Shown here piece after piece: positions 11,760 through 40,812 of a DNA stretch of 64,000 nucleotides (the first letter of the stretch is position 1; the number at the start of each line of letters is the position of its first letter). A program made the translations under genes and the position numbers. This DNA is from Flagellimonas meridianipacifica (lineage in GTDB: Bacteria; Bacteroidota; Bacteroidia; Flavobacteriales; Flavobacteriaceae), in contig NZ_PVYX01000001.1 in assembly GCF_003001695.1 (NCBI RefSeq), forward strand, positions 62,001 to 126,000, read 5' to 3'. Below the pieces are notes generated by a model, which was not told where the DNA came from, did no database searches, and saw nothing but the letters and a program-made list of their open reading frames with translations.

Positions 11760-11795
11760 GGTATCTTGCAAAGCGTACACGCGACCGCACAAAAA

Positions 11796-20675: not shown

Positions 20676-20693
20676 TAGTCTGTTTTTAAATGG

Positions 20694-20828
20694 CACCCAA
20701 CGGTCTCGGCTATGAGTAGTTGTGTGGGTTAGCGGTTAATTTAGCAAGTACACACCAAACTGAAAATCCTAGCGGATTTTAAGAAGTAGGCGAGAACGAG
20801 CAATTACTTATAGCCATTGTTACATATC
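20694..20828 (-). other. attC-like recombination site 2
   Basis: 135 bp. On the + strand the arms are GGCTATGAGTAGTTG (20708-20722) and CAATTACTTATAGCC (20801-20815), pairing at 13 of 15 positions. They are flanked by CACCCAAC (20694-20701) and GTTACATATC (20819-20828). On the - strand the site ends in GTTGGGTG, which fits the integron R' consensus GTTRRRY. The TAA stop of the acylase gene lies inside its first bases, a typical position for a cassette gene. Shares its outer 13-17 bases with site 1. Confidence 0.6.
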
Positions 20829-23642: not shown

Positions 23643-24680
23643 CTACTTAAATGCGATAACAGCACTTGATGGACCGGTTAAAGGCATCACATTTGTTCGA
23701 CTAAACCCTACCTCTTTTGCCCATTGGGTAAAATCGGAGGCTGTAAAATCAAAACCTTGATCTGTCTCGATTGCCATATTTAAGGACATCATTAATCCGA
23801 AAGCATTCTTATTTCTTTCATCATCAATGATATTTTCAATAACAATAAGAGCTCCTCCTTCAGGTAAGGCATTATATGCCTTTTTTATTAACAATAATTT
23901 GTCATCAGAACCCCAATCGTGAAGAATATTTCCCATTGTGATAACGTCTGCACGTGGTAATTCATCCTTAAAAAAATCTCCTGAACGGACTTCTATTCTG
24001 TCGCTTAATCCAAAATGTTCTACATTTTCTTTAGCTATTGGGCTTACAGGAGGCAGATCAAATGAAATACACCTAATATGTCCATTATTTTTTACTATGT
24101 GTATGGAAAGATTAGCTCCTGAGCCGCCAACATCACAAAGTGTATTATATATTGAAAAATCAAAATCATCGGCTAGCTTCATAAAATTCCCGGCTTGAAC
24201 ACCACCCATGCCATGAATAAACTCTCTAAGTCTGTCTTCATTTGCATAAATGGCTTCAAATAATGGTTTACCTCCATTTTTAGTCTCATTTTGTGGTTTG
24301 CCAGTTTTTAGACACTCTTCTAAGTCGTTCCAAAAAGGATACAACCTATTGTTTGACATTTCTAATATACCTCCTATATAACTTGGTTTGTTTTTATCTA
24401 AAAACAAGGCTGAATCGTCTGAATTACCATATACTGCATTCTCCTTTAATCCAGAACGGTTCAAAAACCCCAATGCCACTAAAGTGTCGAGGAAATCAAA
24501 AAGGGACCTGCTATTTAATGCTAATTTATTTTGAATTTCCTGACCTGTCATTGTACCATTTGCGAGATGTGTGAACAGCCTCATGTTAACTGCTGTGAGC
24601 AGAGTTTTTGATGCCCAAAACCCCATTCCAATTTGCATTATTTTGGAAGGATTGATTTGATTTTCATTAGCTGTGTCCAT
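23643..24680 (-). CDS. SAM-dependent O-methyltransferase (dimerisation domain type)
   Basis: 345 residues. An N-terminal winged-helix dimerisation domain (about 14-90; ASKTLLTAVNMRLFTHLANG) is followed by a Rossmann SAM domain with motif I LCDVGGSGANLS (about 187-198) and the post-motif GNILHDWGSDDKLLLIKKAY, where the His-Asp pair matches the catalytic His of plant-type and polyketide O-methyltransferases. Likely methylates a hydroxyl on a small aromatic or polyketide-like compound in the cytoplasm. Placed between two acylase paralogues on the same strand. Intact. Confidence 0.9.
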   Translation of the reverse strand: MDTANENQINPSKIMQIGMGFWASKTLLTAVNMRLFTHLANGTMTGQEIQNKLALNSRSLFDFLDTLVALGFLNRSGLKENAVYGNSDDSALFLDKNKPSYIGGILEMSNNRLYPFWNDLEECLKTGKPQNETKNGGKPLFEAIYANEDRLREFIHGMGGVQAGNFMKLADDFDFSIYNTLCDVGGSGANLSIHIVKNNGHIRCISFDLPPVSPIAKENVEHFGLSDRIEVRSGDFFKDELPRADVITMGNILHDWGSDDKLLLIKKAYNALPEGGALIVIENIIDDERNKNAFGLMMSLNMAIETDQGFDFTASDFTQWAKEVGFSRTNVMPLTGPSSAVIAFK

Positions 24681-24943: not shown

Positions 24944-27046
24944 TTAATTCATTCGCTCCATACATTCTTTTCTAAGTAAGTGCTGCTCCTGGCTTGCCCG
25001 GTCAAACCAAATGTCCCTCAACTCATTTTTACTGAATAGTTCCAGTTGATCTCCATAGTGGGGGCTGTCCGGGTTGGAAGAATTGCCATAGGAGAGCAGG
25101 CCTTTCGCTTTAATGTTTTCGCCCATCTCCACAACCATCACGAATGAATCTCCAAAAAACCCAGTGAAATGGTCTTTGTTTTCCGGATCAGGCACTGCCG
25201 AAAGAATCCTAAAAATTCCCAGTGATTGGTTACCTCCAGTAGCGGCATACTCATACTCCCCCCTTTTCAAGCGGTAGTAGTCTCCATAAGGTACTTCAAG
25301 TGAAGGATATTTTTCCAGGTGCATTTGAGCTGCCGTTTTGAGTATTCCTATCATTTCTTCTGGGTTCTTAAAATCATCTGGCGTTTTAAGGGGATCATCA
25401 ATCGTCCATTGTTTTTCAAACCCTACGTTCAGCAGACCTCTGGATGAGACCGCTTTTTGTGTTGCCCAAGTATCTACGAACTCCATAAAAAAAATAGCTC
25501 CCGAACTTTGGCTATCGTAGGTTGCGTCCCAATCTGTTATGGTTTCAATAGCGGCCAAAACAAGTGAATCAGATGTCTGCCTTTTCAGTTCCGCCAAGTC
25601 ATCTTGTATTCGTAAAGCAAACTCAGCTTTATTATCATGCTTTAAAGCTACCAGCTCGTCAAAACTGATGTTATCATTTTCATGAAGCAGTCTCGCTGAC
25701 CGCTGCGGTCTCAAATAAAATCGACCTTCTATTTCAGGTGTAACATGTGAAGCAAAATGCTCGGCATTCAACACCCTTGGTACTGTATTGAGGAAAGGAG
25801 GTTCATTCGCGTTTTGCAGCCAGCCTCCAGGAGGGTTCACCACCATTGGCAGCTCATTACTTTCGTAATAACGGGTCCAGATGTTTACACTTGAGTCTCC
25901 CGGGACAACATCCTGCCATTTGTTCCAGTCTCCGTTCTTCTTAGGGATCAGACCCCCAAAATGGTGCATGATGTTGCCGCTCTTGTCTGCATATAGTGTA
26001 TTGAGAAAAGGCATTTGCCTCAATGAAAGGGCCTCATTGAATTCATCCAGGTTTTTAGCCTTGCCCATAAGGTGGTACTGTTCCAAAAAAGGGGTATAGC
26101 CGTCCATTTGTGCAAAGCGCATGGCTATGGCCGTATCATCTGTATCTGTTATTACCACACCATGTCTGGTTTTCTTTCGGTTCAATTCGTGGACTACGAT
26201 AGTGCCATCTTCTTTCAATTCTTTGACAGTGTAGCTACTCTCCTCGAATGGCAGGTATTCTCCATCTAAGTAATAGCTGTTGCCGTTTTTCTTCACTTCA
26301 TAGAAGTCCGTGTTGTCCATCGGGTTCACAGTATGCGTCCAGGATACATTTTCATTGAATCCAATAACGATACTTGGCTGCCCTACTAGTGAAACCCCGT
26401 ACAGATTATGGTCATCGGTAATCAATTGCTGCTCGTGCCAAAGCATTGGTTCTGCCCACCAGAGGTGTGGATTGGCTACCAGCATGGCATTACCGGTTGA
26501 AGTTTTCTTACCAGAAATGGTCCATGCATTCGATCCTGCATTTAATCGCTGAGCAGCCTGCAATTCCCCCTTGATGAGAAACTCATAATTGATAATCCTG
26601 AAGTAGTGGGCTATCAGGTCCGTTTCCCGTACGGGAAGTATTTTTAGATATTCTTCGTTCAGACTGCTCCGATGCCTTTCAGTGTAAGCATTGACTCCAT
26701 CGGCAAACGAGGATAGCATTTGCTGGTACTTGGGCGCAAGGTTCTCGTAAGAAGTTTCAAGCTAGTCAATAATACCTAGATGGTGCATATTTTTATTGAC
26801 TTCAAAACCGTCTCCCCAAAGTTCAGCACTTACCCCGCGGGCCTCACCGTAAAGTTTCAAAATCAGATCGCCATGGTTTTTCATCTGCGCCCAACCTGCC
26901 ATATAATATAGGTTGGAATCTGAGGAAGCGTAAATGTGTGGAACACCATAGCTGTCCCATAGTATTTCATCTTTTGTGCTGGCCTTCTCGGAGACAGAGC
27001 AGGCGCTAAGTCCGCATAAGATTAATAAAAATTTGAGGTATTTCAT
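24944..27046 (-). pseudogene. Second penicillin acylase family lipoprotein, split by an in-frame amber
   Basis: Full length 700 codons, same architecture as the acylase at 20820. Lipoprotein signal (MKYLKFLLILCGLSAC), nucleophile Ser in NAGSNAWTISG, and all later blocks present. One TAG at 26762-26764 (codon 95) interrupts the alpha-subunit region between HHLGIID and LETSYENLAPKYQQ; the paralogue has a sense codon (YEQLQPAYDN) there. Both sides are in one frame and otherwise clean. The loss is recent, or a sequencing error, or an internal ATG at 26719 drives a signal-less product. It lies 176 bases downstream of the Liv operon and may have been its last gene. Confidence 0.75.
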
Positions 27047-27082
27047 GTGTATATAGTTTGTTTTTCAATGGTCACATGCCTG

Positions 27083-27098
27083 CCTGTCAGCAGACAGG
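27083..27098. repeat. Small hairpin CCTGTC/GACAGG
   Basis: Arms CCTGTC (27083-27088) and GACAGG (27093-27098) with a 4-base loop, preceded by TGCCTG, in the gap between the substrate-binding protein and acylase 2. No T-run on either strand; possibly a REP-like hairpin that stabilises the operon mRNA. Confidence 0.3.
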
Positions 27099-27222
27099 AA
27101 ATTCGCAATAAAAATTTATCGAACAGTTGGTAAAAACTCAGTCAAGAATGTTTGTGCTGATTTCATGTAATTAATTGTTATTTCCTCTAGGGTTTGAAAC
27201 CCTCCCGGGTTTGTAAGCAACA

Positions 27223-28449
27223 TCATTCCTCTGCCAGCTTTTCAATGGCATAGTCAAGGTTTAGCTCAGACATTTTGAGCGCTGAGATTTGCTCGGCCTG
27301 GCCGTTTTCACTACACTCAAACATGGCTGCCCCCCTGGTACCCTGTCTCTCCCCTTCACCGAAACTAATCCCAAAACCAAGCCCACTAAAATCCCTGATA
27401 TTTTCCATGGCCTGAATGAATTTTTCACGAGTGAGGTCGGGCCCGGAATCCTGAAGTGCTTTGGCGACAGGTTCTGCAAAGTAATAGCCGGATGCCACAA
27501 ATGTGGTCCATGGCAAATCCGGATATTTGTCCTTCAATGCAGCCTGGTATCCTTCCATGTCAACATCTGCTTCGTAATTGAAAAAACCACTGAACCGAAC
27601 ACCGGCCCAGCGACCTTCGGTGATTTTGTGCATCAACTCGGTATCGCTCAATGTGGAATTGGTAATCCATTGCGGAGCATACCCCAAAACAGCGGCTGTG
27701 CCGGTAATTATTGCGCCCTGACGAGGAAGGACCTGCATAATGACTACCTCAGCCCCGGAATCTTTTAATTTGGCGACATGGGACCCCAGGTCCTGATCGG
27801 TCACTTCAGTTGATACTTCTTCGACCAATTCCAGGTCGTATTTTTCCATCGCAATCTTCACACCGACCAATCCACTTTTGCCAAAATCATCATTTTGATA
27901 GATCATCGCAATTTTATCTTTGCCAAGACTGTTGACGATATGGTCTACCTGTACAAAAGCTTCGTCAAAATAAAGCGAGTACGTACTGAAGAGGTTGTTT
28001 TGAGGGGGATATGCCCAATGTGTCGCTCCGCTTGCAGGTGATACCCAGGGGACTTCGTTTCGTGCAATGTAGTCCTTCACTGCCATGCAGGGGGCAGTCC
28101 CCACACCTCCCACAAAGGCGAACACCTTGTCCTTCTCGACCATCTCACGAACGGCAGCTACGGTTTTTGACGGCTGAAAGCCATCGTCCTTGATCACCAC
28201 ATTGATCTTCCTGCCGTGGATACCCCCCTTTTCATTGATATAATGAAAATAGGCATCAACCCCCCGTGGTACGTTCCCCCATAGGGCTGCCGGGCCTGTA
28301 AGCGGCCCCCAGGTGCCAATGGTAATGGTGCTGTCAGTCACGCCAACCTCAGCGGTTTGTGAAGATGACTCGGAACTTCCCCTGCCACGTCCGCAGGACG
28401 TTATGGTGACGAAGATTACTATCGCAATCAAATGGTTTAGGTTCTTCAT
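27223..28449 (-). CDS. livJ: Branched-chain amino acid type ABC substrate-binding lipoprotein
   Basis: 408 residues. Signal ending VTITSC with the acylated Cys at 19 and a Gly/Ser-rich linker, then a type I periplasmic binding protein (Peripla_BP_6): TITIGTWGPLTGPAALWGN opens domain 1, with INEKGGIHGRKINVVIKDD, FVGGVGTAPCMAV and VAMIYQNDDFGKSG-like blocks. This is the receptor of HAAT/Liv transporters, which take branched-chain amino acids, amides, urea or aromatic acids. Last gene of the transporter block, 12 bases after the acyl-CoA synthetase. Lipid anchoring is unusual for Liv receptors of Gram-negatives but normal for this phylum's exported proteins. Ligand unknown. Confidence 0.9.
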   Translation of the reverse strand: MKNLNHLIAIVIFVTITSCGRGRGSSESSSQTAEVGVTDSTITIGTWGPLTGPAALWGNVPRGVDAYFHYINEKGGIHGRKINVVIKDDGFQPSKTVAAVREMVEKDKVFAFVGGVGTAPCMAVKDYIARNEVPWVSPASGATHWAYPPQNNLFSTYSLYFDEAFVQVDHIVNSLGKDKIAMIYQNDDFGKSGLVGVKIAMEKYDLELVEEVSTEVTDQDLGSHVAKLKDSGAEVVIMQVLPRQGAIITGTAAVLGYAPQWITNSTLSDTELMHKITEGRWAGVRFSGFFNYEADVDMEGYQAALKDKYPDLPWTTFVASGYYFAEPVAKALQDSGPDLTREKFIQAMENIRDFSGLGFGISFGEGERQGTRGAAMFECSENGQAEQISALKMSELNLDYAIEKLAEE

Positions 28450-28461
28450 AGTATTTATAAT

Positions 28462-30279
28462 TTAGTGATACATGGATTCTATAAGTTGTTTATAGTTATT
28501 GGCAATAGCGTTTCTTTTCACTTTCATCGTAGGTGTCACATCTCCATCCTCCTGATAGAGTCGCCTGGGCAGGATGGCAAACTTCCTGACTGATTCTACC
28601 CTCGACAGGCCTTTGTTAACCGTATCCACCTCCTTATGGATAAGTTCATTGATTTGGGCGTTTTCCGCCAAATCTGCATAAGTCTGGTAGACCACCTTAT
28701 TGTCCCGGGCATATTTGCTGATGTGCTCCTCATCCAGCACAATCAGGGCAGCCACAAACTTCCTCTTTTCACCAATGACGATGGCATCATTGATGTAGGC
28801 GCTACATTTCAGTTTGTTTTCGATGTACTGGGGCGCAATGTTTTTCCCCCCTGCAGTGATGATGATATCTTTCTTTCTATCTGTGATGATGATATGGTTG
28901 GTTTCATCCATTTCTCCGATATCCCCGGTGTACAGCCATCCATCTTTGATGGTATTTCGGGTAGCTTCTTCGTTTTTAAAGTACCCTTTGAACACACATG
29001 GCCCCTTTACCAGAATTTCACCCTCGTCGCTAAGCTTGACCTCCACCCCCGGGATTGGCAGCCCGACCGTCCCGAACCGCAGTGTTCTATAACGTGTGCT
29101 GGAGGTGACCGCACAAGACTCTGTCTGTCCGTAACCCTCGATAATGTTCAGCCCAATCGCATTGAAAAACAACAAGATATCCGGGGCTATGGGAGCCGCC
29201 CCCGAAAAGGCATAACGCATCCGCTCCATGCCCAAATGTTTGCGTATCTGCCAATAAACGGTTTTTTCAAAAACCCATCGCTGCAATTTGTCCATTGGGG
29301 TGACATTGTTTCCTGCAATTAAGTGTTGAATGACCTTTTGCCCATGATTGATCGCATGTCGTGCGAACCATCTTTTGACCCACGTAGCCTCATCTATGGC
29401 CAGATTAATTTTAGCGTGGTACTTTTCCCAAATCCTGGGCACGGCATATCCAATAGTAGGGGAAATTTCCCTAAGGTTTTCAGCGACCGTCTGAGGGCCT
29501 TCTATAAAGTTGACCACATAGCCGGATTGAATGTGTGCCAGTACACTGAACATACGTTCGAAAATATGACAGAGCGGCAAGAAGGAGAGTACTTCATCTT
29601 TCGGGCCAACTTCCGTCTCTTTCTGGATGCCGGAGATTGCTCTCGCCGACCAGGTCAGGTTTTTGTGTGTCAGCATGACCCCCTTGGGAGGGCCAGTGGT
29701 GCCTGATGTATAGATCAGAATGGCCGTTTCGTCCTCTTTTAATCCGCCACGTATCTTTTCTCCCTTTTCGACAATTTTCGGTGAGGCTTTTTCCCCTGTT
29801 TTCATGAGCTTCTTCAGCGATATGACCCTATCATCATTGAAATCATCAAGCCCTTTCCAGTCCCATACAATGACTTTTTTCACCTGTGGCGAGGTGTCTT
29901 TAAACTGGAGCCATTTGTCGAGCTGCTCCTCGTTTTCCAAAAAAAGGCAACTACACCCGGCATGGTTAACCACGTATTGGCATTGCGCAGCGGCATTGGT
30001 AGTGTAGATGCCTACAGTAATGGCCCCCGCGAGCTGTGTGCCTATGTCGATGTATAACCACTCGGGGCAATTTTCTCCTATCACGCCGACAAAATCACCC
30101 TTTTCTATACCAAGACTTAATAGCCCGTTTGCCACTGTCAGGGCAGCATCCTTGTATTCATGCCAGGTCACATCCTTCCATAAGCCAAAGGACTTATGAC
30201 GAATGGCGATGGTATCTCCAAATTTTCCTGCATTGTTCAGGAATAGTCCTGGGATGGTATTTAGGTTCAATTCGCTCAT
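28462..30279 (-). CDS. AMP-dependent (long-chain) acyl-CoA synthetase
   Basis: 605 residues from the ATG at 30279, four bases after the livF stop; an in-frame start further up would overlap livF. The ATP/AMP motif ILIYTSGTTGPPKGVMLTH (about residues 187-205), EGYGQTESCAV and the hinge region DGWLYTGDIGEMDE with TDRKKDIIITAGGKNI are all intact. It activates a carboxylic acid to acyl-AMP and then acyl-CoA; length and motifs fit the FadD-like long-chain group. Genes of this type are often embedded in Liv operons of other phyla, implying activation of a compound linked to the imported substrate. Confidence 0.92.
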   Translation of the reverse strand: MSELNLNTIPGLFLNNAGKFGDTIAIRHKSFGLWKDVTWHEYKDAALTVANGLLSLGIEKGDFVGVIGENCPEWLYIDIGTQLAGAITVGIYTTNAAAQCQYVVNHAGCSCLFLENEEQLDKWLQFKDTSPQVKKVIVWDWKGLDDFNDDRVISLKKLMKTGEKASPKIVEKGEKIRGGLKEDETAILIYTSGTTGPPKGVMLTHKNLTWSARAISGIQKETEVGPKDEVLSFLPLCHIFERMFSVLAHIQSGYVVNFIEGPQTVAENLREISPTIGYAVPRIWEKYHAKINLAIDEATWVKRWFARHAINHGQKVIQHLIAGNNVTPMDKLQRWVFEKTVYWQIRKHLGMERMRYAFSGAAPIAPDILLFFNAIGLNIIEGYGQTESCAVTSSTRYRTLRFGTVGLPIPGVEVKLSDEGEILVKGPCVFKGYFKNEEATRNTIKDGWLYTGDIGEMDETNHIIITDRKKDIIITAGGKNIAPQYIENKLKCSAYINDAIVIGEKRKFVAALIVLDEEHISKYARDNKVVYQTYADLAENAQINELIHKEVDTVNKGLSRVESVRKFAILPRRLYQEDGDVTPTMKVKRNAIANNYKQLIESMYH

Positions 30280-30283
30280 GGCC

Positions 30284-31060
30284 TTAGTTCCATCTCCTTT
30301 TTCTTTTATACCGCTGTGTAGCACGCACAGATTCTTCCGCTTTTATACCCAGGTAAAATTCCTGTACATCTTCATCTCTTTTTAACTGCTCCACGGTTCC
30401 GGAAGCGACAAACCTGCCGTTTTCCAGGATGTATCCATAATCGGCAATCGCCAACGCTTTATTGGCGTTTTGCTCCACCAGCAAGACCGTAAGGCCGTCT
30501 TTGGCTATCTGATGAATGATGTCAAACAATTGGTCTACCAATAAGGGTGATAAGCCCAGTGAAGGTTCGTCCAAAAACAACAATTGGGGGCGGTTCATGA
30601 GTGCCCTGCTAATGGCCAGCATTTGCTGTTCGCCACCGGATAGTGTACCGGCCATCTGCTTTTGACGCTCTTTTAAAACCGGAAAATACCTATACACTTT
30701 TTCTATGGTCTCCTTTGCCGAGGCTGAATTGTGCATATAGCCGCCAGCCATCAGGTTTTCCAAAACACTGAGTTCCTGAAAGACCTCCCTACCTTCCGGG
30801 ACATAGCCAATCCCCATTTTCACTATGTCCACGGTTTCTTTGCCCGTGATGTCCCTTCCCTGAAAGAAGATGGACCCCTTTTCGGGTTGGTCGTCCAGCA
30901 GCCCTATGACTGTCTGAAGTATGGTGGTCTTGCCCGCTCCATTATTTCCCAGTACCGCAGTGACGGAGCCGTTCTCAATGGATAGTGAGATTCCCTTCAG
31001 TGCCAGTATCCTGTCATAATAGGTTTCAATGTTCTTTATGTTTAGCATCGGTTGTTTCAT
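30284..31060 (-). CDS. livF: Liv-type ABC transporter ATPase LivF
   Basis: 258 residues. Walker A GNNGAGKTT (about 38-46), signature LSGGEQQMLAISRAL, Walker B LLFLDEPSLGLSP, and the H-loop replaced by the LivF-typical EQN (LLVEQNANKAL). Order and sequence identify LivF rather than LivG. A basic tail after the usual end (VRATQRYKRKRRWN) extends it by about 20 residues; its coding sequence holds the AAGGAG-like ribosome site for the next gene. Its ATG overlaps the livG TGA as ATGA. Confidence 0.94.
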   Translation of the reverse strand: MKQPMLNIKNIETYYDRILALKGISLSIENGSVTAVLGNNGAGKTTILQTVIGLLDDQPEKGSIFFQGRDITGKETVDIVKMGIGYVPEGREVFQELSVLENLMAGGYMHNSASAKETIEKVYRYFPVLKERQKQMAGTLSGGEQQMLAISRALMNRPQLLFLDEPSLGLSPLLVDQLFDIIHQIAKDGLTVLLVEQNANKALAIADYGYILENGRFVASGTVEQLKRDEDVQEFYLGIKAEESVRATQRYKRKRRWN

Positions 31061-31824
31061 CCTAAATATGCTTTTACCACCTCGGGGTGTTTGATCACGG
31101 CTTCCGGTTTACCTGTGACAATAGACCTACCAAAATTGAGGGCCATGATACGGTCAGAAATAGAGGTGACCAACCCCATGTTGTGCTCAATGACCAGGAT
31201 AGTGATATCAAACAAGCGCCTGATGTCATTGATCCAAAAGACCAGTTCATCTTTTTCTTCCAGGTTCAAACCGGCCGCAGGCTCATCGAGCAATAACACA
31301 GAGGGTTCGGCGGCCAGTGCCCGGCCCAACTCCACAATTTTCTGCTGGCCGTACGGGAGCTGCGAGGTGTACCTGTTTCTTACCGATTGCAAATCCAGCA
31401 AGTCAATAATCTGTTCCACTTTTTCCCTATGTTTAATTTCGTCTTTGGCTGCCGGGCCCTTTTCCCAGAGCATTGTAGGCAAGTTCCAAAAATTGGTTTT
31501 CATGTACAGGTGCCGGCCCAACATGAGGTTTTCCATGGTGGTCATCTTGCTGAATAGCTCCAAGTTTTGAAAGGTCCTGCTCAGGCCCTTTCTGGCGATT
31601 GCATGTGGATTAGCCCCGGTGATTTCTTCACCATTCAACCAAACCGAACCCTGACTGACTTTGTACAGCCCGCTGATACAATTGAACAAGGTGGACTTTC
31701 CGGCACCATTCGGTCCAATGATCGAGAAGATTTCGCCCTTTTTCACCTCCACGGAAATGTCATCAGTGGCTATCAGACCACCGAACCTCTTGGTCACTCT
31801 TTTCAATGCTAGTGCTATGCTCAT
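31057..31824 (-). CDS. livG: Liv-type ABC transporter ATPase LivG
   Basis: 255 residues. Walker A GPNGAGKST (about 35-43), a LivG-type insertion, signature LPYGQQKIVELGRAL, Walker B VLLLDEPAAGLN and switch IEHNMGLV. The family-specific block LSRTFQNLELFSKMT is present. With LivF it powers the LivHM permease. It shares 4-base ATGA overlaps with both neighbours, indicating tight translational coupling. Confidence 0.95.
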   Translation of the reverse strand: MSIALALKRVTKRFGGLIATDDISVEVKKGEIFSIIGPNGAGKSTLFNCISGLYKVSQGSVWLNGEEITGANPHAIARKGLSRTFQNLELFSKMTTMENLMLGRHLYMKTNFWNLPTMLWEKGPAAKDEIKHREKVEQIIDLLDLQSVRNRYTSQLPYGQQKIVELGRALAAEPSVLLLDEPAAGLNLEEKDELVFWINDIRRLFDITILVIEHNMGLVTSISDRIMALNFGRSIVTGKPEAVIKHPEVVKAYLG

Positions 31825-32693
31825 ACTTTTCGGGTGTAGTGAGTCCCAAATAATCCGGACGGTTTGAAATAAAGGACAATAACGATGATCAGGAATGCCA
31901 CAATAGATTTAAACTCAGTAGAGATATAAAATCCGAAAAGGCTCTCCACTATCCCAAGAATAAATGCCCCGCACACAACTCCGGCCAGGCTGTTGAACCC
32001 GCCGAGTACTGCCGCAGCAAAACCTTTGAGCAAGGGCTCTATCATCATGTTGGGGTCCAGAGTGGTGATAGGTGCCATCAATATCCCGGCGACTGCTCCT
32101 ATTACTGAACTGATACCAAAGGTAATGGCCACAATTCGCCTAGTAGGGATACCATTGATCTTAGCCGCAGTTTCGTTCTGCTGGGTCGCTTTGATGGCCA
32201 ATCCGAGTTTGGTAAACCGCAGCAGGATGTAAACTGAAATCATGAGGAGGATAGCCACCAGGATTGTGGCCAGATTCAATTGTGAAATGATCAGGCCCGC
32301 AAATTCAACCGTTTCGGTTTGAGATACCGGGATTTTCAAAACACGCTGTTCTGATCCCCATTTCCATCCTGCCAGCCCATACAAAAAGACCTGAAAGCCC
32401 AAAGTGATAATCAAAAGGTTCAACACGTTGGGGTCTTTGGCCCTTCTGATGATGGCCAGGTGTAAAAAGAGTCCCAAAAGAAAAGCAAACAGCAGCGAAC
32501 CACCAAAAGCCACCCAAAAGGGGAGCTGATAGGTGGCCAGCATCACAAAAGCTACATAAGTGGAGAACATCGCCATTTCTCCCTGAGCGAAGTTGGCCAC
32601 TTCGGAGGATTTATAGGTGAGGCTCATGGCCAGTGCGACCAGAGCATAAATGCTACCAGCAACGATTCCCGTCATGATGAGTTGTCCTATCAT
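31821..32693 (-). CDS. livH: Liv-type ABC transporter permease LivH
   Basis: 290 residues, about 8 membrane helices. The start GQLIMTGIVAGSIYALVALA is the classical LivH opening, and KGFAAAVLGGFNSLAGVVCG and KINGIPTRRIVAITF match the family's EAA-like coupling loops. Inner-membrane half of the permease with LivM. Two bases separate it from livM and four overlap livG. Confidence 0.95.
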   Translation of the reverse strand: MIGQLIMTGIVAGSIYALVALAMSLTYKSSEVANFAQGEMAMFSTYVAFVMLATYQLPFWVAFGGSLLFAFLLGLFLHLAIIRRAKDPNVLNLLIITLGFQVFLYGLAGWKWGSEQRVLKIPVSQTETVEFAGLIISQLNLATILVAILLMISVYILLRFTKLGLAIKATQQNETAAKINGIPTRRIVAITFGISSVIGAVAGILMAPITTLDPNMMIEPLLKGFAAAVLGGFNSLAGVVCGAFILGIVESLFGFYISTEFKSIVAFLIIVIVLYFKPSGLFGTHYTRKV

Positions 32694-32694
32694 A

Positions 32695-33741
32695 TTAAAA
32701 TGGCCAGGTTTTAAAATAGATTTTGATTCTCATCCAAATCCCAAAAAGGCCAAGCGGCTCAAAGAGGATGATTAGGATTACGGTCAACCCCATGAATACA
32801 AAATTGATATTGGGCAATCCACTGATGGACATATAATGGACACTGACCCACTCGAAAAAAGGCCCAATCAGGGGAACTTCCTGGATTTTTTCTCCTTGGA
32901 GGTTCAAAAGCGTAATGACCGTGGCTCCCAGTACGGATCCCGTGATGGTGCCCAATCCGCCTACTACGACCATGGACAACAGGAGGATGGAAAGGACGGG
33001 GGTGAAGTTTCCCGGGCTGATAAAACCCAGCACATAGGCCCAGATGCCACCACCTATTCCGGCATAGAAGGCACTGAAAGCAAAACTCATGGTCTTGTAC
33101 CGAACCACATTTACCCCCAGGGAAGCAGCAGCAATATCACTATCCCTGATCGCAGAAAAAGCCCTTCCGATTCGGCTCTTGATCAGTAGTCGGGCAAAAA
33201 CCCCCAATACCAGGGCAATACCTAATGTCAGGTAATACAAATGTGAGTTGGTAGTCAACTTCATTCCCCAAACCTCCAACTGAGGGGGCATGATGCCCAT
33301 ATGTCCACCAAAAAATGACAGTCTTCCGATGACGATGGTCACAGCCAACCCAAAACCCAGCGTGGCCACGGCGAGGTAGGGCCCTTCCAGCCTGAGTGAG
33401 GGTATCCCCAGTATAAACCCAAAAATGGCTGCTACAAACCCCGCCAGAATCAGAGAAGGCAAAAAAGGCAGCCATCCCTCATCCAAGATCACGGTCATAT
33501 ATGCCCCAATGGCCACAAAACCTCCATGTCCCAATGATATCTGACCTGTATTGCCAACGAGCACATTCAACCCCAGTATTATAATGATATTCACCAAAAC
33601 CAGATTGGCAATAAAAACCTGGTATTCGGCAAGGACAAAAGGAATCAGGCCAAAAAGTAATAACCCTAAAAGGGACCATCCTTTTACCGGTCTATCCTTT
33701 AAAAGGGTGATGTCTTCAAAATATGAGGTTCGTTTGTCCAA
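32695..33741 (-). CDS. livM: Liv-type ABC transporter permease LivM
   Basis: 348 residues, about 9-10 helices after a cytoplasmic N-terminus of some 25 residues. LVGNTGQISLGHGGFVAIGAY is the LivM signature; IRDSDIAAASLGVNVVRYK and GGLGTITGSVLGA follow. Sampled composition here is high (30 of 60 G+C in 32881-32940) against 21 of 60 in the acylase at 21001-21060, so the Liv block looks acquired. First gene of the compact transporter block, 100 bases after the DUF1254 gene. Confidence 0.95.
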   Translation of the reverse strand: MDKRTSYFEDITLLKDRPVKGWSLLGLLLFGLIPFVLAEYQVFIANLVLVNIIIILGLNVLVGNTGQISLGHGGFVAIGAYMTVILDEGWLPFLPSLILAGFVAAIFGFILGIPSLRLEGPYLAVATLGFGLAVTIVIGRLSFFGGHMGIMPPQLEVWGMKLTTNSHLYYLTLGIALVLGVFARLLIKSRIGRAFSAIRDSDIAAASLGVNVVRYKTMSFAFSAFYAGIGGGIWAYVLGFISPGNFTPVLSILLLSMVVVGGLGTITGSVLGATVITLLNLQGEKIQEVPLIGPFFEWVSVHYMSISGLPNINFVFMGLTVILIILFEPLGLFGIWMRIKIYFKTWPF

Positions 33742-33841
33742 GGTTAAAAGGTTGAAGGTTATTCAATATAATCTAAAATTTAGAGTAGCACATCGCTGGG
33801 TATTGGATAAAAAGATAAAAATGATAAGTGGCATTGATGTT

Positions 33842-34882
33842 TCACTTCTTGTTTACAATAACTGTCATATCGGCATCTTTGATTGGTACACAGGCCCGTA
33901 GTATCGCATAAAATGCTTTCCCTGTAGGAATACCATTTAACCCTTTACCCGTAGGACTAAGCGTGACCGTGTATGTTCCATCATCGTTTTGTCTGGAAGA
34001 ATAGCTTGTTCGGTCATAAACGATTTTTTCATTGGGAATAAGTAGTCTATTATCGACCCCATATAACGTAATCGACATATAGCCTTTTTTATGGACAATA
34101 TTAGGGGGTATGGTCAATTCGTAGGTGTCCTTTCCTGTAAATGGCTGACCTTTCTCATCAGTTGCTATGACACTGTATTTAACCGCCTGCGCAGGTGCAC
34201 CATGACGTGCTCTTTTTACAACTGCTGCTAAAGTGATTGGGTCTACTTCTCCCGATTTTTGGGGGTAAATAGCTTTTATGTAAGGAATTGATGCATCAAT
34301 AAGGGAATTTCCCCATTTTATTGTTTTTTTTGAAAACTCCTTCGCCTCATAATCTATTTCTCCTTTCCCACCCTCTATTACAATGGACTTCCTCAGCTCT
34401 TCTACTTTGGCCATGTTATTAGCTACCACCATTCGAGTTATGATAAGCCCTTGGTCTGTTTCCAATTCCACGGCATGAAACTCACCTTTGGGCATTTTCT
34501 GACCGGGTCGGATTAATAGAATGGGGTTCTCCGGATTAACAAAAACCCCTCGTATATTGTGTTTCATGTCATAGACTGAAACCGAGAAGTACCTGTCATA
34601 CTTAGGAACATTAATAGTAGCCGGAGCGTCAGATATACTAAACCAACTAGAGCCATAATCTACACTTGCCTGAACGTTTTTTGTTTTTGTTTCAGCGTTC
34701 GACAAGCCAGAGAATAAAAGCGTGCCTAATTCATTATTTTCCAACCATGCGTACATTAATCTGAACTGTTCCAGCTTTGGATAATCCTTTATGTATTCAA
34801 GCACATTGTCTTGTGCAAATGCCGAATTGATGCTCAAGGCAACTATCGCAATTGCTAAATAGTGTTTTAGCTTAAATTTCAT
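33842..34882 (-). CDS. DUF1254/DUF1214 secreted protein
   Basis: 346 residues with a cleavable signal peptide (MKFKLKHYLAIAIVALSINSAFA). The DUF1254 part (about 50-150) has RLMYAWLENNELG and APATINVPKYDRYFSVSVYD; the DUF1214 part ends with YMSITLYGVDNRLLIPNE, YDRTSYSSRQNDDGTYTV and FYAILRACVPIKDA. Such two-domain proteins are periplasmic, abundant in marine bacteria, and of unknown reaction; a few are linked to steroid or aromatic catabolism. Its ATG overlaps the stop of the methyltransferase gene as ATGA, showing cotranscription with the upstream operon. Intact. Confidence 0.85.
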   Translation of the reverse strand: MKFKLKHYLAIAIVALSINSAFAQDNVLEYIKDYPKLEQFRLMYAWLENNELGTLLFSGLSNAETKTKNVQASVDYGSSWFSISDAPATINVPKYDRYFSVSVYDMKHNIRGVFVNPENPILLIRPGQKMPKGEFHAVELETDQGLIITRMVVANNMAKVEELRKSIVIEGGKGEIDYEAKEFSKKTIKWGNSLIDASIPYIKAIYPQKSGEVDPITLAAVVKRARHGAPAQAVKYSVIATDEKGQPFTGKDTYELTIPPNIVHKKGYMSITLYGVDNRLLIPNEKIVYDRTSYSSRQNDDGTYTVTLSPTGKGLNGIPTGKAFYAILRACVPIKDADMTVIVNKK

Positions 34883-36171
34883 TTGCAGTTATTTAATGTG
34901 TTGTCAATTGCTATATGCCCCACCTCATTGATCCGTGCCTTTAGGCCTGCCTGGTTGAGAACTTCAGCTGCTTTATGGTTAAAACCAGCCTCGTTCAGTT
35001 CATTAATGATGTTTTCCACCAATTGCCATAGTTCAAGGGGTGATATAGACGGATCAACATTGCCATAGTAACCGTCATCATCACGGGGGCACAACCGATA
35101 ATTAGCCCTTAGTTCATCATTGAGGGTGTAAAATTCATCCATGAAAAACTTGTCTTTACGGATGATACCGAGCAAATGCATCAACTGTGAGGTCTGCCGG
35201 TCGTCATCATGATTGGCATACCATGTAACCACGCCAAATGGGCACAATGTGTCAATGCTGAAAGCAAACTCCTTTTCAATAAGGTGGCCGTCCTTCTTCT
35301 GGTATACATGGTAGTAACACTCCGAAGATGCCGCCCAATTACCGCCTATCAGGACCAACCCGCCTTCTTTGGTTTTACTTGCAAACCATTGAAGTGCGTT
35401 TTGGAAAAAAGCATCATCAAAATAATAAAGCACATTGAAGCAACGAATACAATCCACTGGTTCCATTTCCACCTGGCCGATACCTCCCCATAAGAAGGTC
35501 AGTTTATCGGTTTCATAGGTTTTAATAGGGTCGATTTCCAATCGAGGGTAACCATTGGGCGATGTATGTGGCTGAGCGAGCAGTTGGTCCAATAGTATTT
35601 TAAAACGGTCTTTTGTCACCTTTGTATCTGATAGCAGTTCGTTCCAGTTCTCAACGGACGGGATGGACGGTTGGAAGTAGATTACATTTTTCTCAGCGTC
35701 AAAGGTGGCGTAATTCTCCTGTTCATCGTACACCAGGTAAACAGGGAATGATGGGTCTGCTGCTATAATTTTCCAGTCAGAAAGAAGCTTACTGGAGTCT
35801 AGGGTAGTATATGGTGGAAACCCACAGCCTATGTCCAGCATCGACCTGCTTCCCGCTGTATTTCCCATTCTGTTTTGTACATACTCATCGATGACCTTAT
35901 GACGGCCTGGCACGGTTATGGGGGGCACCCGGCCTTCCCATGCCCCGGGAAGTATGCGGGCCAGCAGTGCGCCCAATACTTCACCCATCATGACGGATGC
36001 ATCTTGCGCGGGAAAGTCGGCCTGATTCATAAAGCTGAACATGCGCCGCATCATGGTGAATACATCGGGCCTGTCCATGGGCAATTGTAGCAATTGCTCC
36101 GTAAATGCCGCGGAAAGTTTTCCATTGAAAAAGTCGTTGTTGAACTCCTTTACAAATTGTTGTACATCCAT
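34879..36171 (-). CDS. Class I SAM-dependent methyltransferase (large, divergent)
   Basis: 430 residues, larger than simple methyltransferases. Motif I is SMLDIGCGFPPYTTL (about 110-124) with the acidic motif II in WKIIAADPSFPVYL. A helical N-terminal domain of about 80 residues and a long acidic C-terminus (LCPRDDDGYYGNVDPS) flank it. The middle block IRCFNVLYYFDDAFFQNALQWF is the usual post-II region. Cytoplasmic, no signal. Start at 36171 is four bases after the epimerase stop. Substrate and closer family unknown to me. Confidence 0.75.
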   Translation of the reverse strand: MDVQQFVKEFNNDFFNGKLSAAFTEQLLQLPMDRPDVFTMMRRMFSFMNQADFPAQDASVMMGEVLGALLARILPGAWEGRVPPITVPGRHKVIDEYVQNRMGNTAGSRSMLDIGCGFPPYTTLDSSKLLSDWKIIAADPSFPVYLVYDEQENYATFDAEKNVIYFQPSIPSVENWNELLSDTKVTKDRFKILLDQLLAQPHTSPNGYPRLEIDPIKTYETDKLTFLWGGIGQVEMEPVDCIRCFNVLYYFDDAFFQNALQWFASKTKEGGLVLIGGNWAASSECYYHVYQKKDGHLIEKEFAFSIDTLCPFGVVTWYANHDDDRQTSQLMHLLGIIRKDKFFMDEFYTLNDELRANYRLCPRDDDGYYGNVDPSISPLELWQLVENIINELNEAGFNHKAAEVLNQAGLKARINEVGHIAIDNTLNNCK

Positions 36172-36175
36172 CGTT

Positions 36176-37141
36176 TTATTTGTGTGTGCTTTTCACTGCT
36201 ACATTGTTGCTAAATTCCGTTAGGGGAACTATCGCTGAATTGAACTCAATTCCCAAATCCCTTTTAGCCGCATCATTTTTATAAACGATCTTTGCGTTTC
36301 CTTTTGGTTTCTCACCATTGAGTAAGACGGAGATATCGGACACCTTCCAGCTTTCGCTACTGAGCAAGTAATTTTTGCCGTGCAGACCTTTTTTAACAGC
36401 CGCACGATAAACGCCTTCTGCCACGTCCTTCACATCCACAAGTGCAAACTCAGCATCTGTCTCATAGATCATTTGGATAAAAGGATTGGGGGCTATCCTG
36501 TTCTTAAATAAGAATTGTAGTCCCGAAGAAGTCGAATCCTCCCTTTTGGATAATGCCATGCCCATTACCCCAACAGGTGAAACACTGGTGATTTCAAAAT
36601 CTATAGCTGGATGCTCCTTAATATACTTTTCCACTGTCTGGTTTGCGATGAACTTGGCTTGTGCATAGGGATGGCTTTCCTCGCTTATAAAGGGAGTGTT
36701 TTCTTCATCAATCGTATCGTCAGGTCCTAGGCCATCCGGAGGCAAAGGAAAGTTGGTATTGTAGGCTCCCACCGAAGCGACAAAGACAACCTTTTCAATA
36801 CCCGAAGCGGTATTGAGAACTTCCAGGAAATTTTTAGTCCCCTCTATGGTCGGATCAAACAGTTCAGTTTTTGGGTCCTGCACCTCTAACTGAAAAGGAG
36901 TGCCTCCGTGGACAAGGATATTGCAGCCACTCGCAAACTCCTTTAATTGCTCTTTGTTCTCAACCTTCAGCTGGACAATCTCCAAATTTTCAGCATTGTT
37001 TAACGATTTTAAATGGTGGTATTTCTCCGTTTTTGAAATGTCAGTGACTGAAGCCTTAACCTTAAATCCTTTATCTAAAAATTTCTTTGTGGTATGACTT
37101 CCAATGAAGCCTGAACTACCAATAATTCCAACTGTTTTCAT
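36176..37141 (-). CDS. NAD(P)-dependent epimerase/dehydratase (extended SDR)
   Basis: 321 residues. Opens with the nucleotide motif GIIGSSGFIGSH (about 5-16), has ILVHGGTPF in the usual strand-4 position, a catalytic Ser in VASVGAY and the YxxxK pair YAQAK. The pattern resembles dihydroflavonol/cinnamoyl-CoA reductase-like enzymes, which reduce or oxidise a carbonyl/hydroxyl on a small substrate. Part of the - strand operon, 28 bases after the DUF885 gene. Intact. Confidence 0.88.
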   Translation of the reverse strand: MKTVGIIGSSGFIGSHTTKKFLDKGFKVKASVTDISKTEKYHHLKSLNNAENLEIVQLKVENKEQLKEFASGCNILVHGGTPFQLEVQDPKTELFDPTIEGTKNFLEVLNTASGIEKVVFVASVGAYNTNFPLPPDGLGPDDTIDEENTPFISEESHPYAQAKFIANQTVEKYIKEHPAIDFEITSVSPVGVMGMALSKREDSTSSGLQFLFKNRIAPNPFIQMIYETDAEFALVDVKDVAEGVYRAAVKKGLHGKNYLLSSESWKVSDISVLLNGEKPKGNAKIVYKNDAAKRDLGIEFNSAIVPLTEFSNNVAVKSTHK

Positions 37142-37169
37142 AGTCTTAGTTGTTTTTGTTTAGCTCTGT

Positions 37170-39020
37170 TTATCGATCCAGTTGTCCTGCTATCCAATCT
37201 TCCACATTGCTTTCCAGTACACTTAGTGGCACAACACCGCTACCAAGTACCACATCGTGGAAGTCTCGGATATCAAAATCATTGCCTAATTTTTCTTTGG
37301 CCCGTTTTTTTAACTCCAGGATTTTCAATTCCCCAATCTTATAGGCCAATGCTTGCCCCGGCCAGGCGATGTAACGATCTACTTCCACCGTAATGTCGTG
37401 CTCGGCAATACCGGAGTTGGCTTTGAAATACTCAATCGCTTCCTCCCTGGACCAGCCCAAAGCATGGATGCCTGTGTCCACTACCAAGCGAATGGCACGC
37501 CAAATTTCTTCAGTTAGTCTACCGTAGCGTTGATAGGGGTCGGTGTACAACCCGAGTTCCTCACCCAGACTCTCAGCGTAAAGTCCCCAGCCTTCGGCAA
37601 AGGCGGTGAATTGAAACGTGACTTTTTTAAACTCGGGATCGTTTTCCAGTTCCTGGGCAATGGTAATTTGGAAATGATGGCCAGGCACTGCTTCATGTAG
37701 GCTGAGCGCTTCCATTCCCCACTTAGGGCGGCTCTTTAAATCGTAAGTGTTAGCATAGAAATAACCTGCCCTTCCCCCTTCCCTGGACCCTGGCATGTAA
37801 TAGGCTGAAGGAGCACTTTTTGCTCGATAGGCAGGAGTCTCATTTACGCCATAAGGCAGTACTGGCATAATGCCGAACAACTTGGGCAACTCAGGATCTA
37901 TACGTTTACAGATGTCACGATACGCTTTGAGCAATTCCTCTGGATCGATGAAATAAAACTGTGGGTCTTCCTTTAAGAAGGTATTGAAAGCTTGGATGTC
38001 TCCCTTAAACTTTAATTCTTCGATAATTTGCTCCATTTCTCCAAGAATCCGGGCCACCTCCCGTTTCCCAATTTCGTGTATTTCTTTGGCTGTCAGGTCA
38101 GTCGTGGTATGGAAACTGATCCGCTCATTATACCAGGCCTCGCCGTTAGGCAGGTCTTTGAGGCCGTACGTCCTTCGGGCCCTGGGCAGGTAGGTATCCT
38201 TCATGAAATTGTGAAAGGTCAATAGTGCCGGGTTCACTTCCTGACTGATAAGATTTCTAATCTCTTCCTGAAACGAACGTCCTCCTTCCGAGTCAATACT
38301 TCCTGGCAGGTTGGCTATAGGCTGATAAAAAGCACTCTCCTCCGGATTGTCCGTTATCAAACTGACCAATTGGGCAGGCACTTGCACCACCGAAGTGTAT
38401 GGCATAGAGATACCCTCATCCAGACCTTTCTGTAACAATGCCTGCATATCAGCAAGTACTTTGGCAATGCCTTCCATTCTGGATTTGAAGTTCTGCAAAT
38501 CCTTTTCCATTCTAATGGGCATGGACTGCATCGTCATGGCGATGTAATGATTGTAATTCTGGATCTGGTCTACAATGAGGTAGTGATTAGGAAACTGGCT
38601 GGTGTAATAGCTGTCAGCGACACTGCGGTTGTACACCTGATAGTTGGTCGCATTTTCGGGTGACAGGTCAGCTACATCAAACCAATCTTTGGTCTCATAA
38701 AGCCGCTTTAGGGTTTGCTTCCGCCTATCAAACCCTTCGGGTGATACTTCCATCCAAAGATGGTCATAAGTATGATTGCCCATTATGGTACCCATAGGAG
38801 GCAGTTGTTTGAGCTCATTGTCAGCGTACAGTTCAAAGAGCGCCTGTAAGCGTTCCGTTTCAGTGCTGAAGTTTTCTTTTTTACTGATGTAATCAAGTTG
38901 TTCTTCTATTGAGGCATTTTTCGGTGGTGATTTTGCATCAGGTTCTGGTTGAGAACAGGCCAATATCAGACTTGCCAGCAGAAACATGATGTACTTTGGT
39001 GTTGATTTTTTCATTTTCAT
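37170..39020 (-). CDS. DUF885 family peptidase-like lipoprotein
   Basis: 616 residues from the ATG at 39020 (a second ATG lies two codons on). Lipoprotein signal KYIMFLLASLILAC. The zinc-type motif HEAVPGHHFQ and a second acidic block FTAFAEGWGLYAESLG match DUF885, a family related to M3-like or M32-like carboxypeptidases, with short charged helices. The last third has WPGQALAYKIGELKIL. Likely periplasmic hydrolase of a peptide or amide. One base before the agmatine-deiminase fusion stop, so clearly cotranscribed. Intact. Confidence 0.87.
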   Translation of the reverse strand: MKMKKSTPKYIMFLLASLILACSQPEPDAKSPPKNASIEEQLDYISKKENFSTETERLQALFELYADNELKQLPPMGTIMGNHTYDHLWMEVSPEGFDRRKQTLKRLYETKDWFDVADLSPENATNYQVYNRSVADSYYTSQFPNHYLIVDQIQNYNHYIAMTMQSMPIRMEKDLQNFKSRMEGIAKVLADMQALLQKGLDEGISMPYTSVVQVPAQLVSLITDNPEESAFYQPIANLPGSIDSEGGRSFQEEIRNLISQEVNPALLTFHNFMKDTYLPRARRTYGLKDLPNGEAWYNERISFHTTTDLTAKEIHEIGKREVARILGEMEQIIEELKFKGDIQAFNTFLKEDPQFYFIDPEELLKAYRDICKRIDPELPKLFGIMPVLPYGVNETPAYRAKSAPSAYYMPGSREGGRAGYFYANTYDLKSRPKWGMEALSLHEAVPGHHFQITIAQELENDPEFKKVTFQFTAFAEGWGLYAESLGEELGLYTDPYQRYGRLTEEIWRAIRLVVDTGIHALGWSREEAIEYFKANSGIAEHDITVEVDRYIAWPGQALAYKIGELKILELKKRAKEKLGNDFDIRDFHDVVLGSGVVPLSVLESNVEDWIAGQLDR

Positions 39021-39045
39021 TGGTTTTTTGAAATTGATGTACATA

Positions 39046-40812
39046 TCATTTTTTGATTTTTGGCTGGTGCATAGTGATGCAATGTAATCCGCCTCCTCCC
39101 AGATTCACCGGTAGGGCATCTATCATCACTACCTTTCTTTCGGGAAATACCTCTTTCAATATAGCTTTTGCTTTTTCGTCTTGTAACCTTATGCTTTCGG
39201 GCATTCCATCCCGCCAATATTTTTGCCCGACAATGACCTTGTTTGTTATAATAAAATTGAGGTAACTGGCTGGGACCACAACGGTTATGGAATTTCCCTC
39301 TGGAAAAAGGCTTCCATCCTGATAATTCAATGTTTTTACGTAATCGTATACATAATCTCCAGGATTCATTGTGGTAAGGATCGTGGATGGTAATGGCAGT
39401 CTTTTGATGGTAAACAAGTTTCCATCATGATCCCGACTGCCCGAGAGTATTTCGAAGTTCTTTTCCAAACGGTGATGATTTTCTCTGGCAAGAGGATCTG
39501 ATAGTTCGGTACTATCCACAGCTGCTAAAAGAATAGTAGAATCGTTGACAAAACGGGCGAATTCATCGACATGCCCATTGGTTGTTACCACAGTATAAGC
39601 GTTACCTTTTTCAGCTGTATTCAGTGGGCCCAGAAAGGTATGGGTGTCCTCTACCAGCCCCTCTTCAAGCCAGATTACATTCTTAATGCCGAGCATCCTT
39701 TCGAATTCTACTTCCATATCGGCTCTGGACATAGTCGGATTTCGTCCTGATTCCACTTTTTCCGTGACCATTAGTGTCCCCTTGCCGTTCACTTCCCTGT
39801 TTCCCCCTTCGCTTATCATTGGGCTTGAGATAAGTGGAATACTCAACATTTTGGCCACCCCCTCATCATACTTTTCTTCTATTTTAGTGGCAGCATACAA
39901 GGTATCTGCATATCCCCAAGAATTAAAATTAAAGTCGGCTATGGCATGACCACCGCTTTCAGTTTTCACGAAAATGGGTCCCATGTCCCTCACCCAAATT
40001 TCAATGGATGGAATCACCTCAAAAACCAGGTTGGTCAAATTGGGATAAATATCTGTTAGGGTATTTTTTGCCTCATCCCGAATGGCGTCATCAGCACAAC
40101 TGATAATGATTTTGGTGTCCTTTACTAGCGTATCTATTATGGCCAAGGTCACTTCTTCTACTGATTCCCCATTTTTGTGGTCGTAAGTCGGCCAGATAAG
40201 CCTGATGGCTTCCACATCTTCAAATTCGGCCATTTGGCGAAGTACCGTTATCTTCTCGTTCTCTTTTTTTGGATGTATGGTCTTCCAGGTCCTGTCTGCT
40301 TTGCGAAGAAACTTGAGTTCGTTTTCTTCCCATCTTTCCTTCGCTCGGAAGTTGGGCGAATCGTGAAAAAGGTAGAGTTTATGATTAATAATCTTAAATG
40401 AAGTAGGTGTACTGGGATACTTTCCCGGTTTGTTTGACCCCACGCCTTTACCCGTTTCCATTCTCAAACCAAACGCGCAATACCCACCAAATTGCGGCAG
40501 GTATTTTTCAGGGTTGCTGATGAATAGAGACCTGCTCTGTTCACTAACAAAGTGGTAGGTAACACCTTCATGTTCATAAGAATTGGAATCCTTACCTTCA
40601 ATGGCCTTTCCTTTGGTGAAGTACGAGATAACATCATATCCGCCTACTCCCAAACCATTCTTACCTACGTAGTAATAACTGGAATCGGAGAGGAAATAGA
40701 GGGTGCTCTTTTCACTTCCCGTCCTTGATTTCTCCTTGTTGTTGTTAGGAGTACCACAAGTGGTGAAAAGTATTAGAAATAGTGCATACGGTATTTTTTT
40801 TATATACTTCAT
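39046..40812 (-). CDS. YHS domain fused to agmatine deiminase, lipoprotein
   Basis: 588 residues. Lipoprotein signal ending ILFTTC (Cys19). Residues about 45-160 are a YHS-type domain (GVGGYDVISYFTKGKAIEG, NPEKYLPQFGGYCAFGL). Residues about 180-588 are an agmatine deiminase/porphyromonas-type PAD: Asp pair in VRDMGPIF, EGGNREVNGKGTLM, His in NGHVDEFARF and nucleophile Cys578 in GGGGLHCITMH. The enzyme would hydrolyse a guanidine group (agmatine to N-carbamoylputrescine, or a peptidyl/related amidine) outside the cytoplasm. Normal agmatine deiminases are cytosolic and lack YHS. First large gene of the - strand operon. Confidence 0.88.
   Translation of the reverse strand: MKYIKKIPYALFLILFTTCGTPNNNKEKSRTGSEKSTLYFLSDSSYYYVGKNGLGVGGYDVISYFTKGKAIEGKDSNSYEHEGVTYHFVSEQSRSLFISNPEKYLPQFGGYCAFGLRMETGKGVGSNKPGKYPSTPTSFKIINHKLYLFHDSPNFRAKERWEENELKFLRKADRTWKTIHPKKENEKITVLRQMAEFEDVEAIRLIWPTYDHKNGESVEEVTLAIIDTLVKDTKIIISCADDAIRDEAKNTLTDIYPNLTNLVFEVIPSIEIWVRDMGPIFVKTESGGHAIADFNFNSWGYADTLYAATKIEEKYDEGVAKMLSIPLISSPMISEGGNREVNGKGTLMVTEKVESGRNPTMSRADMEVEFERMLGIKNVIWLEEGLVEDTHTFLGPLNTAEKGNAYTVVTTNGHVDEFARFVNDSTILLAAVDSTELSDPLARENHHRLEKNFEILSGSRDHDGNLFTIKRLPLPSTILTTMNPGDYVYDYVKTLNYQDGSLFPEGNSITVVVPASYLNFIITNKVIVGQKYWRDGMPESIRLQDEKAKAILKEVFPERKVVMIDALPVNLGGGGLHCITMHQPKIKK

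Follow-up and report, generated by a model that had tools for sequence, protein, structure and literature searches.

A Liv-type importer gene set with an embedded acyl-CoA ligase, a candidate uptake module for hydrophobic carboxylic acids on a tRNA-Met element of Flagellimonas meridianipacifica

Introduction

What does a Liv-type importer carry when the gene for an acyl-CoA ligase stands among its own genes, and how did such a gene set come to lie in a genome of the Flavobacteriaceae? The question is raised by a locus of Flagellimonas meridianipacifica (assembly GCF_003001695.1) within 64,000 nucleotides of contig NZ_PVYX01000001.1 (positions 62,001 to 126,000), a stretch that we analysed as a whole and call the window. 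Coordinates refer to the window, or to the contig where they are prefixed with C1. An earlier, sequence-only reading of the locus had proposed a single pathway, in which an N-acyl or guanidino compound is split by exported hydrolases, the Liv transporter imports the amine part, and the ligase activates the acyl part.

Our analysis leads to a different reading, to which we assign a probability of about 0.58. Six genes, livM-livH-livG-livF-acyl-CoA ligase-livJ (33741-27223, minus strand; C1:89223-95741), would constitute an ATP-binding cassette (ABC) importer for a hydrophobic carboxylic acid that is coupled to activation with coenzyme A (CoA). The LivJ-type protein would bind a fatty, branched, terpenoid or aromatic acid in the periplasm, LivHM together with LivFG would carry the acid inward at the expense of ATP, and the AMP-forming ligase would turn it into a CoA thioester, which would be trapped and passed to the beta-oxidation of the cell. 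The module would be of foreign origin, brought in as cargo by an integrative, conjugative-type element inserted in a tRNA-Met gene.

Results

The Liv-ligase module and its closest relatives

The module begins with a livM-type permease gene with a TTG start (32695..33741) and a livH-type permease gene (31821..32693), followed by the genes of the livG-type (31057..31824) and livF-type (30284..31060) ATPases, the AMP-forming acyl-CoA ligase (28462..30279), and a livJ-type substrate-binding protein with a lipoprotein-like N-terminus as judged by eye (27223..28449), all on the minus strand. The set required for a Liv/HAAT-type importer is complete, comprising Peripla_BP_6 (232.6 bits), two BPD_transp_2 and two ABC_tran matches, all above the Pfam cut-offs. 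The curated NCBIfam cut-offs were missed by the best matches of both ATPases (LivG, 269.5 against 362 bits; LivF, 261 against 441 bits) and by the binding protein (68.8 against 477 bits), and the C-terminal BCA_ABC_TP_C motif of LivG reached 24.7 bits against a cut-off of 25.5. The ligase, encoded between livF and livJ on the same strand, matches AMP-binding and AMP-binding_C_3 and bears the motifs YTSGTTG and YGQTE. It likely starts at the ATG at 30279, as the longest frame begins with a GTG at 30324, inside livF.

The nearest modules (47-70% identity) were found in another order of the phylum, which is presumably Balneolales-like; the data give the kinship of its representative, genome G119, as same phylum. 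Within this order livJ was present in 6 of 128 genomes (47-61% identity), and within the class of G119 livH was present in 5 of 244. G119 carries livM-H-G-F-ligase-livJ in the same order as the window at 47-66% identity, and G821 has all six genes. In G825, livF-ligase-livJ lie on one contig and livM-livH on another; in G830 the contig begins inside livG; in G823 and G824, livM-H-G-F occupy one contig and livJ another. The window LivH is 57-65% identical to its counterparts in five of these genomes, and LivM 49-60% identical over nearly its full length to those in G821, G825, G119 and G823. The ligase gene adjoins the module in four of the six genomes (G119, G830, G825 and G821), whose ligases are 51-56% identical to that of the window. 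In the ligase tree the window protein joined these four with a support of 94/97, which the program did not star, without a settled branching order among the five; the LivJ tree did not fix the place of the window protein. The conserved gene order thus supports one element of the sequence-only reading, namely acyl activation beside import. As separate observations, G821 encodes a second, more distant Liv set (L017; livG 47%, livF 45%, livJ 25-27%), and G824 has a second, weak livJ match.

Liv genes linked to a ligase are also found on plasmids. A tblastn search with the ligase matched 1642 plasmid records, and we opened six, chosen from the best 15 of the 1642. Their ligases are 36-43% identical to that of the window, and in all six the ligase is surrounded by liv genes together with acyl-CoA dehydrogenase and SDR genes, four of them having the order permease-permease-ATPase-ATPase-ligase-binding protein. 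Where a source is stated, as in five of the records, it is for instance an algal culture, diatom-containing seawater, or sediment; none is stated for the sixth. Another plasmid record (H1), which came from the livJ search, had no ligase in its stretch.

The ligand of the LivJ-type protein

The best match of LivJ by sequence in the PDB was 4n03 (E 6.9e-27), entitled 'Fatty acid ABC transporter substrate-binding protein'. Entry 4q6w, whose title gives a 3-hydroxybenzoic acid complex, also matched (E 9.3e-16). Other matches are amino-acid binders such as 4n0q with L-leucine, so family membership alone leaves the ligand unsettled. We used the structure-comparison list for the entry titles only; its Z values lie so close together (13.1 to 11.8) that rank carries no weight.

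The LivJ proteins of the window and of five other-order genomes were aligned with LivJ and LivK of Escherichia coli from NC_000913.3. Of the positions of E. coli LivJ that contact the amino acid (Y202, E226, T102, D121, S79 and A100), four are replaced in the window protein, which has L at 202, T at 226, G at 102, and Y at 121; the change of S79 to T is conservative and A100 is kept. The five other-order proteins read as the window does at the four replaced positions, except for an A in place of T at 226 in G119. The loss of leucine-binding residues would disfavour an amine as ligand, and the relatives of LivJ appear to favour an acid over an amine as the imported compound, contrary to the earlier proposal that Liv imports the amine part.

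Rarity in the family and phylum

The earlier remark that Liv systems are uncommon in Bacteroidota was borne out. Among 99 relatives, 60 of them from the genus with our genome included, livJ was found at E <= 1e-20 in our genome only, and restriction to our genome also holds for livH among 299 family genomes from 236 genera. At E <= 1e-20, livJ was detected in 7 of 395 phylum genomes, namely our own, G119 (49%), and five with identities of 26-33%, on whose stretches none of the other 16 queried window proteins was found. As all rarity searches begin with a loose first look, a few misses are possible. When genome contigs were searched with livJ, 62 candidate stretches came up, of which 3 were confirmed; these are from Actinomycetota (29-38%), and we rejected them as nearest kin. 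The literature covered yielded no description of this module in Bacteroidota, nor, among the papers listed for it, any mention of entry 4n03, which does not imply that none is published.

The tRNA-Met element carrying the module

The left end of the element is a tRNA-Met gene (11630..11703, plus strand) whose 3' half is changed relative to that of a near relative, G004 (96% identity in the symporter), and which is adjoined by a tyrosine recombinase gene (11715..13007, plus strand). The symporter gene upstream of this tRNA is present in 60 of 60 genus genomes, and a tRNA-Met lies beside it in all 13 congener stretches scanned (15 were fetched). The genes of our genome between C1:44001 and C1:325000 had no match of at least 45% identity on the 15 congener stretches, apart from symporter-type genes and, in two of them, integrase fragments. 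In G004 another gene comes less than 50 bases after the tRNA; its copy in our genome ends at C1:345985, 272 kb from our tRNA (C1:73703).

At C1:317028-317117 we found an ancestral-type 3' part of the tRNA with a terminator, 87% identical to the G004 site, and a second complete tRNA-Met lies at C1:296091-296164. Direct repeats of the tRNA within C1:44001-146000 amounted to a single 12-base match outside the tRNA, the partner copies lying farther off. Between C1:249.8 and 271.2 kb, Relaxase, T4SS-DNA_transf, TrbL, Transposon_TraM, DUF4138 and TraO matches exceed the Pfam cut-offs, and a second relaxase and integrase are encoded just before C1:317 kb. Like conjugative transposons of Bacteroidota, the element has MobB, MobC, TraJ, TraK, TraM and TraN as best NCBIfam matches besides TraO in Pfam. 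The NCBIfam Mob and Tra scores all lie below the curated cut-offs, which indicates a divergent type of Bacteroidota conjugative transposon.

From these ends and gene contents, we propose either an element of about 222 kb plus a second of about 21 kb or one composite of 243 kb, apparently integrative and of conjugative type. The Liv module lies inside this predicted element, as cargo. The tRNA-Met looks like a repeated integration site. In three congeners, integrase fragments or relatives (L071, L076 and L077; 38-55% identity) lie right beside it. Beyond the far end, C1:317-346 kb may be old DNA that was lost in G004. Before the sequence in common with G004 is reached, C1:317271-341360 holds genes resembling sugar-acid catabolism and a three-part transporter, as judged by eye. 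The element also encodes a Fic-domain protein (17975-19513). We found no literature on a tRNA-Met island of this kind.

Penicillin-amidase-family genes near livJ

Two penicillin-amidase-family genes lie downstream on the same strand, with an O-methyltransferase gene between them (23643..24680, minus strand). They suggest a variant of acid import, in which an N-acyl amide would be stripped of its fatty acid by the intact acylase (20820..22901, minus strand), and this acyl part taken up and activated by the Liv module. Both paralogues, 61% identical to each other, are encoded less than 7 kb from livJ, the intact one has cephalosporin acylases and then PvdQ as its nearest relatives of solved structure, and the ligase would suit an acyl product.

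The acylase gene adjoining livJ (24944..27046, minus strand) is, however, interrupted by an in-frame TAG at codon 95. The sequence-only reading was right that an amidase-family gene follows livJ, yet the ORF (open reading frame) that it placed at the end of the row, 24944-26719, covers no more than the 3' part of a longer frame, which opens with an ATG at 27046 and is broken by the TAG at 26764-26762, a single stop that a search with the intact paralogue recovered as well. Because TAG closes 20 of the 163 ORFs of at least 250 residues in the surrounding 341 kb, we take it for an ordinary stop that interrupts the gene, although the TAG at 26762-26764 could be a sequencing error. The broken frame lies 176 bases from livJ and is not tightly coupled to it. 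At E <= 1e-60, the intact acylase occurs in 4 of 60 genus genomes (our own, G024 at 84%, and two at 32-33%), and livJ was not found in G024. Moreover, no acylase match was found on the other-order stretches compared. We therefore consider it unlikely that the acylase is the source of the acid.

Upstream neighbours and transcription signals

Upstream of livM, the row continues on the minus strand with genes for a DUF1254/DUF1214 protein (33842..34882), a methyltransferase-like protein (34879..36171), a member of the NAD-dependent epimerase/dehydratase family (36176..37141; Pfam Epimerase), a DUF885 protein (37170..39044; 553.6 bits) and a YHS-PAD protein (39046..40812), the last two with lipoprotein-like N-termini as judged by eye. 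From 40812 to 27223 the row thus counts 11 closely spaced ORFs, with gaps, in the direction of reading, of 1, 28, 4, -4, 100, 1, -4, -4, 4 and 12 bases. The re-call reproduced the ORFs and gaps (-4 to 100) of the sequence-only reading, and its gene names agree with Pfam, except that the methyltransferase and YHS matches lie below the Pfam cut-off.

The spacing suggests cotranscription of the 11 genes. A promoter scan found 38 sites (shuffle mean 35.8, sd 5.6) and a terminator scan 14 (shuffle mean 18.5, sd 4.9); as neither count stands out from those of the shuffles, a transcription unit cannot be claimed. A Bacteroidota promoter motif had no minus-strand site within 24000-42823. Farther upstream (42871-46707), a propeller-type histidine kinase and a LuxR-type response regulator, a possible regulator of the neighbouring genes, are encoded divergently from two exported-looking genes, one with a SnoaL-like match below the cut-off.

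The upstream genes differ from the module in base composition. The G+C content at third codon positions (GC3) is 0.53-0.61 across the six module genes, whereas the five genes upstream of them have 0.37, 0.50, 0.44, 0.50 and 0.44, with a step at the module border from 0.37 in the DUF1254 gene to 0.54 in livM. The DUF1254 gene is a neighbour and not a conserved partner. The window's hydrolase, acylase, methyltransferase, epimerase and DUF1254 proteins had no match at E <= 1e-3 on nine stretches from the six other-order genomes, although these are short (6-20 kb) and a more distant linkage could have escaped. Of 296 phylum genomes, 2 have the methyltransferase; the second is G214 (55%), where the other 16 window proteins queried had no match beside it.

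The first gene of the row encodes a YHS (seleno)protein-type domain fused to a PAD-family domain. It satisfies Pfam PAD_porph, and its YHS part passes the NCBIfam YHS_seleno_dom cut-off. Its earlier name, agmatine deiminase, lacks equivalog support, as the NCBIfam model gave 179.0 bits against a cut-off of 381.8. A second PAD-family gene of the same genome (C1:236652-237962) is 70% identical to residues 183-586, has no YHS part, and has no Liv genes beside it. At E <= 1e-40 the protein was found in 2 of 60 genus genomes, our own and G045, the latter partial and confined to the YHS part; the G045 match (46%, residues 31-203) contains one TAA.

Because no hydrolase accompanies the other-order modules on the stretches compared, several of the neighbours occur separately, and GC3 differs, we read livM to livJ as one unit and the hydrolases as neighbours. 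The PAD, DUF885, epimerase, methyltransferase and DUF1254 genes may be of separate origin while possibly sharing a transcript with the module.

Discussion

Liv-plus-ligase clusters are of a known kind; the one described here stands out by its rare host and by its place on a mobile element. Four of the alphaproteobacterial plasmid clusters (Paracoccus albus p3, Pseudosulfitobacter pSMR1-7, Sulfitobacter alexandrii unnamed4 and Phaeobacter sp. G2 unnamed6) resemble the window in having two permeases, two ATPases, a long-chain-type CoA ligase and a binding protein on one strand. They differ in that CaiB, SDR and acyl-CoA dehydrogenase genes precede the module, where the window has PAD, DUF885 and other genes. 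In P. albus p3, the only one compared gene by gene (27-53% identity), the order of the two permeases differs as well. The other-order modules differ from the window by the absence of its hydrolases on the stretches compared and, in two of six, of an adjoining ligase.

Among published systems, the mbdB1-B5/mbdA operon of Azoarcus sp. CIB combines putative aromatic-acid ABC uptake with a CoA ligase (PMC4424350). It differs from the window in its substrate, 3-methylbenzoate, and in having its own regulator, MbdR. CouPSTU of Rhodopseudomonas palustris takes up phenylpropeneoid acids, and CouB is the coumarate CoA ligase, from a coumarate gene cluster of that organism (PMC3610893); here the substrate is known.

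Several observations weigh against coupled acid import. One ORF separates livF from the ligase in G821, and three ORFs separate the ligase from livJ in G830, where livH was not found. No ligase is present in the 5.1 kb before livJ or the 2.2 kb after livF in G824, nor on the livJ contig of G823, 3.3 kb of which reads N. The ligand of 4n03 is known from the entry title only, and its identity to LivJ is about 25%. Because the predicted model of LivJ, made from a four-row alignment of the window and three loci, was poor (mean predicted local distance difference test, pLDDT, of 44.3), its pocket could not be seen. No beta-oxidation operon adjoins the module in the window; the nearest CoA-thioester enzyme seen is of the 3-hydroxyacyl-CoA dehydrogenase family (19779..20696, minus strand), 6.5 kb away. 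Finally, the authors of the Azoarcus study credit the need for growth to the expression of mbdA and not to the putative transporter genes (PMC4424350), so that adjacency alone is no proof of transport.

Could the system be a true transporter of a branched-chain or similar amino acid, or of a derivative, with the ligase gene as a passenger? Overall Liv family membership would fit, as would the two other-order genomes in which the ligase is not beside the module. Against it stand the replaced residues, shared by the window and the five other-order LivJ proteins, and the ligase, which has stayed next to liv genes in four genomes of the other order and in six plasmid regions, making an amino-acid substrate improbable in our view. 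We hold it to be just as improbable that the locus is a mosaic without a working role, gathered on the element and partly decaying. The interrupted acylase and the composite nature of the element would agree with decay, but no frame is broken in the six module genes or in the five upstream of them, and the ATGA overlaps are retained.

The single pathway of the sequence-only reading, in which exported hydrolases supply an amine to Liv and an acyl part to the ligase, is very improbable: tight spacing of the PAD, DUF885 and Liv genes and exported-looking N-termini (by eye) speak for it, but relatives and base composition do not support one unit, a gene-neighbourhood comparison of the six other-order genomes found its genes scattered, with no hydrolase on the nine stretches, the methyltransferase, acylase and PAD genes each occur without Liv genes, and LivJ features disfavour an amine.

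Coupled import and activation of a hydrophobic carboxylic acid thus remains our preferred reading. A bolder extension, which we regard as possible but doubtful, is that a mobile operon for acid import and CoA trapping moves between lineages on conjugative elements and gives a genus that appears otherwise devoid of Liv transport the active uptake of a hydrophobic or aromatic acid, with the exported hydrolases gathered beside it on the element supplying the acid from larger amides or peptides.

Genes packed closely on a mobile element may look like a pathway for which relatives offer no support, as this locus shows. Liv genes readily receive a leucine-transport annotation, and here the sequence, the gene order and the residues speak for acid uptake instead. 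Were the ligand demonstrated, clusters labelled 'branched-chain amino acid' that contain a CoA ligase gene could receive a new annotation. For Flagellimonas, the locus would represent an acid-uptake module in a phylum where such systems are rare, on an element that may be able to spread the trait to new hosts.

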